The notes beneath the pieces are model-generated. The model saw only the letters and a program-made list of their open reading frames with translations, was not told the DNA's origin and searched no databases. The position numbers and the translations under genes were made by a program. From assembly GCA_027487735.1 (NCBI GenBank), contig JAIYDA010000001.1:1-64000 (forward strand): 64,000 bases of DNA, in the 5' to 3' direction. Shown here in pieces: positions 11,320-13,778 of the stretch; the stretch's first letter is position 1; every line of letters begins with the position of its first letter. Source of the stretch: Planctomycetaceae bacterium (GTDB taxonomy: Bacteria > Planctomycetota > Phycisphaerae > Phycisphaerales > UBA1924).

Positions 11320-11439
11320 GACATTGCCTCCACAAAGCCGAGCATCGGAACGGTCGATTTTTTGGCGGTCACCGGAGTACGGATAGTCCGGATGCAATCG
11401 ATGCGTGCGCGACGAGTGTGTTGCGCGGGGAGTTCCTTC

Positions 11440-12327
11440 ATGAGCGTGCTGACCCAAGAACGCGAACAGGTCGTTTCCGCGGCGATCCGCGAGATCAGTC
11501 ACATCGCGACGTTGCCAGAAGTCACGGTCAAGGTGGTCGAGCTTGTGGAGAACCCCAAGAGCACCGCCCAGGACCTGCACAAGATCATCAGCACCGACCC
11601 TGCGCTGTGCAGCCGCATTCTCAAGGTGGTCAACAGCTCGTTCTACGGGCTGCCCGGGCAGATCAGCAACATCAACCGCGCGATCGTGATGCTGGGGCTG
11701 AACGCGGTGAAGAACATCGCGATCGCGGCGAGCATGGCGAAGCTGTTTCGCGGCGGCGAGCTGACGCCCACGTTCAGCGCTCGCGACCTGTGGACGCACA
11801 GCAACGTCGTGGCAGCAGCCGCAAAGCTTGTGGCCAACGGCGCGAAGCTGGGGCTGGCGGACGAGGCATTCCTCGCGGGGCTCATCCACGACATCGGCAT
11901 CATGGTGCAGATGCAGTTTGATCGCAACAAGCTTGCCGATACCATCAACTCGGCGGGGCTGGATGGCGATGGCGTGCCCGCCACCGACTTGCAGGCGCTG
12001 GAGCTTCAGGCCTTTGGCGCGACGCACGAGGACTTCGGTGCTGGCCTGTGCGAGAAGTGGAAGTTCCCCAAGAGCTTTGCGTTCGTCTGCGGCTTCCACC
12101 ACAACCCGCTGAACGCCGCGCCCGACCAGCGGACGCTGCCTGCGGTGATCTATGTCGCGGACCACATCGCAGCGGAAACCAAGCAGGGCTTCCGAGGCGA
12201 CCTGATGCAGACGACGATGGACCCCGGCGTGCTCGACTTCCTGAAGCTCAGCGCCGAGAAACTGGCGGAGATTCGGCAGACGGTGATGGCGAACGCAAAG
12301 GACTACGCAAACACCCTGCAGCAGTAA
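11440..12327 (+). CDS. HDOD domain protein
   Basis: The 295-residue cytoplasmic protein is almost entirely an HDOD domain: LPEVTVKVVELV, the PALCSRILKVVNSSFYGLPG helix-turn, INRAIVMLGLNAVKNIA, the degenerate HD region with FLAGLIHDIGIMVQ, and FGATHEDFGAGLCEKW. Such proteins act in signalling and cell-cycle or motility control, usually without proven phosphohydrolase activity. ATG 11440 has GGGGAG about 9 bases upstream. It stands as a single gene between two hairpins. Confidence 0.85.
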   Translation: MSVLTQEREQVVSAAIREISHIATLPEVTVKVVELVENPKSTAQDLHKIISTDPALCSRILKVVNSSFYGLPGQISNINRAIVMLGLNAVKNIAIAASMAKLFRGGELTPTFSARDLWTHSNVVAAAAKLVANGAKLGLADEAFLAGLIHDIGIMVQMQFDRNKLADTINSAGLDGDGVPATDLQALELQAFGATHEDFGAGLCEKWKFPKSFAFVCGFHHNPLNAAPDQRTLPAVIYVADHIAAETKQGFRGDLMQTTMDPGVLDFLKLSAEKLAEIRQTVMANAKDYANTLQQ

Positions 12328-12499: not shown

Positions 12500-13438
12500 A
12501 TGTCCCACGATCCTCTTGATATCGTTATCGGTTCCAGCGCCACCACCAAGCGTGACCAGCAGGCCTCGGCCTCACACCTCGCGGCGGGCAAGAAGCACGA
12601 AGCAACCGGCGCTCGCGAGCAGGCGATCGCGGAGTATCGAAAGGCCGTGGCGAGCGACCCGTGCAGTGCGGAGGCGCTCTTCAAGCTTGCGTACGCGCTG
12701 GACCTGCTGGGCGAGGAAGAGGAAGCGGTGTCGCTGTATGAGAAGTGCGTGGAGCAGCAGCCCGCGCACGTAAACGCGCTCATGAACCTCACGGTGATGT
12801 ACGAGGACATGGAGGACTACGGGTCGGCGGAGCGCTGCCTGAAGCAGATTCTCGAGACGCACCCCAACCACCTGCGTGCGCGGCTGGCGATGAAGGACGT
12901 GATCGCGAGCAAAGAGATGATCGTGGAGGAAGAGGCCGATCGCGACGTCTTCAAGCGCAAGGCGATGCTCGACACGCCCGTGACCGACTTTGAGCTCTCG
13001 GTGCGTGCCCGGACCTGCCTGAAGAAGATGAACATCCGCACGCTGGGCGACCTGCTGCGCATCACCGAGGCCGAGCTGCTGAGCTACAAGAACTTTGGCG
13101 AGAGCAGCCTGATCGAGATTCGCAAGATGCTCGCAGCCCGCGGCATGCGCCTGGGCCAGGGCCTTGAGGATGCGCACCGCCAGGCGCGGCGCGCCCTGCT
13201 GGATCAATACAAGGGCACCGGGCGCGAGACGATCCTCGCCCGCAGCGTTGCCGACCTGAACCTGAGCGTGCGGGCCCGCAAGGCACTGCAGCTGCTCAAC
13301 ATTCAGACGCTGGGCGACCTCGCGAGCCACACCGAGGCCGAGCTCATGGGCATCAAGAACTTCGGCGCGACCAGCCTGAAGGAAATCCGCGAGCGGCTCG
13401 TCGAGAACAACCTCGAGCTGCGCAAGCTCGATGCGTGA
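12500..13438 (+). CDS. TPR protein with two RNA polymerase alpha-CTD domains
   Basis: The 312-residue protein has TPR repeats at about residues 25-130 and then two copies of the RNA polymerase alpha-subunit C-terminal domain, at ~157-223 and ~246-309. Copy 1 (TDFELSVRARTCLKKMNIRT, FGESSLIEIRKMLAARGM) follows E. coli alpha-CTD to its end, including a RLGQGLED tail. Copy 2 contains NLSVRARKALQLLNIQTLGD and NFGATSLKEIRERL. The arginine equivalent to E. coli R265 and the conserved G and S of the NFGxxSL turn are kept in both; the N268 equivalent is T or K. Such proteins are known from planctomycetes, but the function is not established; DNA or transcription-factor contact is a reasonable inference. 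Confidence 0.85.
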   Translation: MSHDPLDIVIGSSATTKRDQQASASHLAAGKKHEATGAREQAIAEYRKAVASDPCSAEALFKLAYALDLLGEEEEAVSLYEKCVEQQPAHVNALMNLTVMYEDMEDYGSAERCLKQILETHPNHLRARLAMKDVIASKEMIVEEEADRDVFKRKAMLDTPVTDFELSVRARTCLKKMNIRTLGDLLRITEAELLSYKNFGESSLIEIRKMLAARGMRLGQGLEDAHRQARRALLDQYKGTGRETILARSVADLNLSVRARKALQLLNIQTLGDLASHTEAELMGIKNFGATSLKEIRERLVENNLELRKLDA

Positions 13439-13778
13439 TCGGTGCACATGCCGCGGCGCACGGTGGGTTGGTGGGCTTTGCTCGCTTGCTTGCCCATGCC
13501 GGGCACGTCGGTGCGAGCGGCAGGGCAACGTTGTAGTCGCCAGCCGTGCACTGGGTGCACGCGGAGATGCCACGATCTCCCAAGACAGCGCTCGCAAGCC
13601 ACAGCGCGAACCTTGTACGCTCTTGAGCACGCGTGCGGGCGTTTCCCTGCGCCTCGCCAGATTCTGCTACCACTTCCGGCCAGAATTATCAATCGCGTCC
13701 CGTCGCGCCGTGCGCAAGCCGCGAACGATGCGACCGGCTTATCACTCCCCCACCACCACCGCGCCAGAAGGACTCTGC
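13439..13778. other. 340-base stretch without a gene
   Basis: Neither strand shows a convincing gene here. The open frames have no family resemblance and no ribosome binding sites. The last 20 bases hold AGAAGGA, the ribosome binding site of the porin gene. I see no strong promoter or hairpin. Confidence 0.5.

Follow-up and report, generated by a model that had tools for sequence, protein, structure and literature searches.

The C-terminal domain of the alpha subunit (αCTD) is a main site at which activators and UP elements act on bacterial RNA polymerase. Here we describe a gene of the Planctomycetota whose product carries two such domains behind a set of tetratricopeptide repeats (TPRs). 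Both domains share the fold and length of the polymerase αCTD (PF03118; Escherichia coli rpoA residues 249–329) together with equivalents of R265, N294, G296, S299 and E302, and the first of them, CTD1, is on average about 49% identical to the E. coli domain (48–49% in the best structure superpositions). Unlike the polymerase alpha subunit, the TPR-αCTD protein has two αCTDs per chain and lacks the αNTD, the dimerisation and β/β′ binding domain required of rpoA, so that assembly into the polymerase is not expected. With the peptide-binding TPRs of RPAP3, PP5 and Tom71, and with OGT, it has in common the TPR fold and an asparagine that is conserved at position 6 of the groove; unlike theirs, the groove residues it conserves are mostly acidic (E102, D103, D133), with one arginine, R126.

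The αCTD-like domains of the NCBIfam hypothetical protein PRK07758 and of the BREX PglW model likewise lie outside rpoA. Both models match the present protein weakly, and membership in either was rejected on the curated cut-offs (45.7 of 115 bits and 38.4 of 990 bits, respectively). None of the open-licence full texts searched describes the TPR-αCTD protein, its near-universality, its ruvA linkage or its function, and the main text of an essential-gene paper on Planctopirus limnophila makes no mention of TPR or ruv genes (PMC10632474). The individual domains are known, and Pfam suffices to reveal their arrangement; what appears new is a detached, duplicated αCTD as a core protein of a phylum.

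Domain layout and predicted structure

The gene lies in a 64,000-nucleotide stretch of a Planctomycetaceae bacterium genome (contig JAIYDA010000001.1, positions 1 to 64,000), hereafter the window, and forms a single open reading frame from an ATG at 12500 to a stop codon at 13436–13438 (Table 1). The annotated start is probably correct, since the N-terminal MSHDPLD is kept among related Phycisphaerales. A 352-residue frame on the opposite strand (12572–13630) was dismissed as a shadow frame without support of its own, and a consensus scan found no ordinary sigma70-type promoter near the gene.

Table 1. Features of the TPR-αCTD gene in window coordinates.
Feature	Positions	Strand	Residues and remarks	Basis
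TPR-αCTD gene	12500–13438	+	312 aa plus stop	reading frame, Pfam
TPR region	12557–12871	+	20–124; three repeats; N96, E102 and D103 of the groove near-invariant phylum-wide	
Capping helix (long) and linker	12872–12970	+	125–157; R126 and D133 near-invariant	
CTD1, first αCTD	12968–13162	+	157–221	Pfam, alignment, model
Inter-αCTD linker	13163–13225	+	222–242; helix 222–237 predicted	model
CTD2, second αCTD	13226–13432	+	243–311	Pfam, alignment, model

The first-pass annotation had proposed, from the letters alone, a TPR protein with two αCTDs at exactly these coordinates, closely matching the polymerase domain yet separate from RNA polymerase, and each of these points was borne out. Pfam detects RNA_pol_A_CTD twice, with a protein score of 132.7 bits (E 3.7e-39) where the gathering cut-off lies at 23.8, and TPR_8, TPR_17 and TPR_14 all score above their cut-offs within the first 130 residues. 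When domains were scored across the whole genome, CTD1 and CTD2 reached E values of 2.0e-19 and 1.0e-18, compared with 2.2e-21 for the genuine rpoA αCTD, and the family-model scan of this genome returned no further αCTD above the cut-off beyond those of rpoA and the TPR protein. By sequence, rpoA itself is a separate, complete gene between rpsK and rplQ. The TPR-αCTD gene is thus not a piece of the polymerase, given an intact rpoA in its usual place elsewhere in the genome, and the reading as an rpoA fragment or pseudogene is ruled out by that intact copy together with the conservation and single-copy state of the gene. All rpoA equivalog models fall below their cut-offs on the protein and match chiefly its C-terminal part.

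AlphaFold2 modelled the full-length protein with a pLDDT of 89.7 and a pTM of 0.54; each part is confident, and the relative placement of the domains is uncertain at that pTM. A single long helix (residues 125–157) connects the TPRs to CTD1 in the model. The TPR fold is seen both in the model and in its PDB matches, where RPAP3, PP5 and Tom71 align with Z scores of 16–18 over about 120 residues. Since the listed matches of the full model were TPRs only, the αCTD pair was modelled separately (pLDDT 89.8, pTM 0.75). The top PDB matches listed for the pair are αCTDs, mainly spanning CTD1, and the best superpositions (0.6–0.8 Å over 65 residues) are with αCTDs solved with AT-rich DNA. First among them is the Caulobacter crescentus αCTD on AT-rich DNA (9zum; 0.6–0.7 Å over 65–66 residues); E. 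coli αCTD-CAP-DNA and αCTD-sigma4-UP complexes are also among the matches listed.

Distribution and gene neighbourhood

The TPR-αCTD gene is a single-copy, near-universal core gene of Planctomycetota. Within Phycisphaerae, an orthologue was found in 144 of 150 genomes with E values of 1e-15 or lower and about 43–64% identity, in almost every case as a single copy. Across Planctomycetota genomes of at least 90% completeness, all 244 gave a match at E 1e-10, and about 241 of them are counted as holding an orthologue, because the weaker matches of three (G171, G226 and G282; 1e-11 to 1e-13) are taken to be rpoA alone. The family-model scan returned exactly three αCTD matches in 67 of 78 genomes, which fits one domain in rpoA and two in the TPR protein. 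Extra αCTD matches were observed in some Planctomycetota, with five in G163, G232 and G290 and four in G183, G254, G266 and G296.

As far as tested, with the genomes of one other phylum sampled, the protein is found only in Planctomycetota. A single one of those 61 genomes was positive, a contaminated metagenome-assembled genome titled Dehalococcoidia (L054) in which the gene sits on a 3.5-kb contig; this copy looks like a misbinned contig, given that the other 60 genomes of its phylum lack the gene. The planctomycete gene was also seen in two genomes titled Cyanobacteria and Leptolyngbya (L070, L044). Viral contigs yielded no relative, and in plasmid and phage collections the matches listed covered less than half of the query and were either of αCTD type (mostly annotated as rpoA) or TPR; a horizontal or mobile origin was rejected on these grounds. 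In a domain tree of 66 columns, too few for the deeper relations, rpoA αCTDs, CTD1 and CTD2 form three separate groups, a picture consistent with a single ancient origin, no later than the base of the phylum, followed by vertical descent.

The short form of about 312 residues is frequent in the window's order, and outside it the open frames mostly encode about 430–500 residues, with additional N-terminal repeats that resemble TPRs. CTD2 is missing from four genomes of one family, the frame ending after CTD1 while the TPRs, CTD1 and a downstream ruvA are kept, and in L141 and L150 the NFG loop has been lost from CTD2. With CTD2 or its NFG loop lost from these lineages, the TPRs and CTD1 make up the conserved core.

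Outside Phycisphaerae, 27 of 36 family representatives have ruvA downstream of the TPR-αCTD gene and in the same orientation, with a median gap of 44 bp (at most 330 bp in 25 of the 27 and at most 150 bp in 23). The identities of RuvA, RuvB and Tgt at such loci were confirmed by NCBIfam. All three genes lie downstream in L150, L141 and L148, and tgt directly follows the TPR-αCTD gene in L126, L132 and L137, where a nearby ruvA was not detected. Genes beyond ruvA differ between lineages and include ruvB, asnS and a converging mnmG. The same-strand adjacency seen in most of these representatives is absent from the window: the search for a neighbouring ruvA came up empty there and at 80 Phycisphaerae loci, with a query that could miss a very divergent RuvA, and also in nine other representatives outside Phycisphaerae. 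The simplest history would be an ancestral cluster with ruvA that was later broken up in some lineages. In the window's genome the only trace of RuvA is a sub-threshold RuvA_N match on another contig (E 8e-4; G000:C49:19651–19809), so that its RuvA is presumably either divergent or located in missing sequence. Phycisphaerae loci often lie near genes resembling a MATE-type transporter and pdxA by sequence. Upstream in the window, the gene at 11362–12327 bears an HDOD-type resemblance by sequence, with no NCBIfam match at 1e-5.

Conservation of the αCTD surface and the TPR groove

The arginine equivalent to R265 is R169 in CTD1 (13004–13006) and R258 in CTD2 (13271–13273). N294, G296, S299 and E302 correspond to N198, G200, S203 and E206 in CTD1, and to N287, G289, S292 and E295 in CTD2. 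The first-pass annotation was therefore right that the arginine and the conserved glycine and serine are kept in both domains, and it had named loss of the arginine in most orthologues as the result that would overturn its view. No such loss was found. Both R265 equivalents are invariant in Phycisphaerae (115 of 115 for each domain), and in a phylum-set alignment of 55 sequences, read in E. coli numbering, CTD1 keeps R265, N294, G296, S299 and E302 in every row. CTD2 is slightly more tolerant, with R265 in 54 of 55, N294 and G296 in 52 each, S299 in 51 and E302 in 55. Mean pairwise identity is 0.685 for CTD1 and 0.605 for the αCTD of planctomycete rpoA, which suggests a constraint on CTD1 at least comparable to that on the polymerase domain, the two compared sets being drawn from different genomes.

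The reported departure at N268 stood for the window protein itself, which has T172 in CTD1 and K261 in CTD2, but not as a trait of CTD1 across the family. Position 268 of CTD1 is asparagine in 39 and threonine in 15 of the 55 rows, asparagine in 39 of 41 sequences of a phylum-wide set, and threonine in 87 against asparagine in 28 of the 115 Phycisphaerae sequences; on this distribution, the threonine is to be read as having arisen in the branch to which the window belongs. CTD2 instead has a basic residue at this position (lysine or arginine in 50 of 55). Two further departures from the polymerase αCTD mark the family as a whole, namely an arginine in place of A267 in both domains (51 of 55 in CTD1 and 50 of 55 in CTD2) and, in CTD1 only, the replacement of K297 by glutamate in all 55 rows (E201 in the window protein). 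In view of these CTD1 changes, affinity or specificity for DNA may differ from that of the polymerase αCTD. Of the 265 determinant of DNA-binding αCTDs (R265, N268, N294, G296, K298, S299 and E302), both domains thus keep five residues and most CTD1 domains of the phylum also N268; the K298 position is threonine or serine in the family, and threonine already in planctomycete rpoA. As a separate observation on rpoA, N294 has become serine or alanine in the polymerase αCTD of seven of 14 planctomycete rows, the window's genome included, unlike the TPR protein, in which N294 is always kept in CTD1 and nearly always in CTD2.

The helix positions that line a TPR groove (2, 5, 9, 12 and 13) are generally the variable ones. 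In the present family, N96 (41/41), E102 (40/41), D103 (41/41), R126 (39/41) and D133 (41/41), all in the third TPR or the helix that caps it, are nearly fixed, and groove positions have a mean entropy of 1.05 in TPR3 and 0.88 in the cap, whereas the remaining, ordinary positions of TPR3 average 2.22. After the groove, the linker helix carries the motif M-x-Y-[DE]-E, for which the window protein has MIVEE. Such near-invariance implies, as judged from the alignment, one ligand conserved across the phylum and bound by the last TPR groove and the cap. The mainly acidic character of the groove argues against an EEVD-type acidic tail as that ligand.

Possible functions

Our preferred reading, which we hold with moderate confidence, is that the protein acts in Planctomycetota as a stand-alone αCTD-based DNA-binding adaptor that tethers a partner, probably in transcription. 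CTD1, aided by CTD2 in most lineages, would bind A/T-rich, UP-like DNA in its minor groove, in the manner of the polymerase αCTD, while the last TPR repeat and the capping helix would grip one conserved partner and thereby tether it at such DNA. The most likely consequence would be an influence on transcription, either through assistance in recruiting polymerase or sigma or through occupation of UP-like sites. In its favour stand the kept DNA-contact residues, the constraint on CTD1, the equivalents of D259 and E261 that CTD1 retains, the superposition on αCTDs solved with AT-rich DNA, the nearly fixed groove, and the persistence of CTD1 in genomes that lack CTD2. These parts differ in strength. 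DNA binding is quite probable, since the αCTD contact surface is retained and strictly conserved, and a fixed partner of the groove is likely in view of the groove conservation; the role in transcription is a best guess that might equally prove wrong, drawn from the origin of the domain in RNA polymerase. Counting against the adaptor are the conserved neighbour ruvA, a recombination gene and not a transcription gene, the loss of N268 from CTD1 in the window's branch, and the threonine or serine at K298, a DNA contact in E. coli. More tentatively, the protein could be a phylum-wide general transcription factor built from a duplicated αCTD, which would read UP-like DNA in trans, independently of the polymerase, and deliver one partner there, whether a chromosome protein, sigma or the polymerase.

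Linkage to ruvA leaves room for a role in DNA repair or recombination, and an accessory factor of this kind, although unlikely in our estimate, is the main rival. The αCTD, with its helix-hairpin-helix-type fold, would have been repurposed for branched or damaged DNA, the TPRs would dock a Ruv or other repair protein, and the gene would be part of an ancestral cluster with ruvA, ruvB and tgt, as the close same-strand spacing to ruvA and the longer runs in L141, L148 and L150 would suggest. The protein is, however, equally conserved where ruvA was not found nearby, in the window, at the 80 Phycisphaerae loci and in the nine representatives; the varying neighbours after ruvA mean that co-transcription may be mere housekeeping; and the kept residues are the ones that contact the minor groove of ordinary B-form DNA. 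It is rather improbable that the αCTD surfaces instead mimic those of the polymerase, binding sigma region 4, activators or NusA and sequestering polymerase partners without DNA. Consistent with such a mimic, CTD1 keeps the equivalents of D259 (53 of 55) and E261 (52 of 55), both looser in CTD2, which in E. coli contact sigma region 4, and the glutamate at 297 adds negative charge beside the DNA-contact loop of every CTD1. The strictest conservation nevertheless falls on the DNA-contact residues R265, N294, G296 and S299, and the DNA face has become more basic, not less, through the extra arginine at 267 and the lysine or arginine at 268 of CTD2. An RNA- or ribosome-associated adaptor, whose αCTDs would have given up their action on DNA and polymerase, seems very unlikely: TPR scaffolds are general, and genes of translation or tRNA biology (asnS, tgt, mnmG and tig by sequence resemblance) neighbour the gene in some lineages, but these neighbours differ from lineage to lineage, and the DNA-contact residues are kept across the family.

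Transcription in Planctomycetota is poorly understood, and since cultivable species with genetics exist, such as P. limnophila, the question of function is directly testable. With the DNA-reading surface of the αCTD carried by a second, nearly universal protein, either promoter recognition in the phylum would have an additional, unstudied layer or the surface would have been taken over for DNA repair. If the protein should prove to be a general transcription factor, it would constitute a second αCTD system beside that of RNA polymerase itself.
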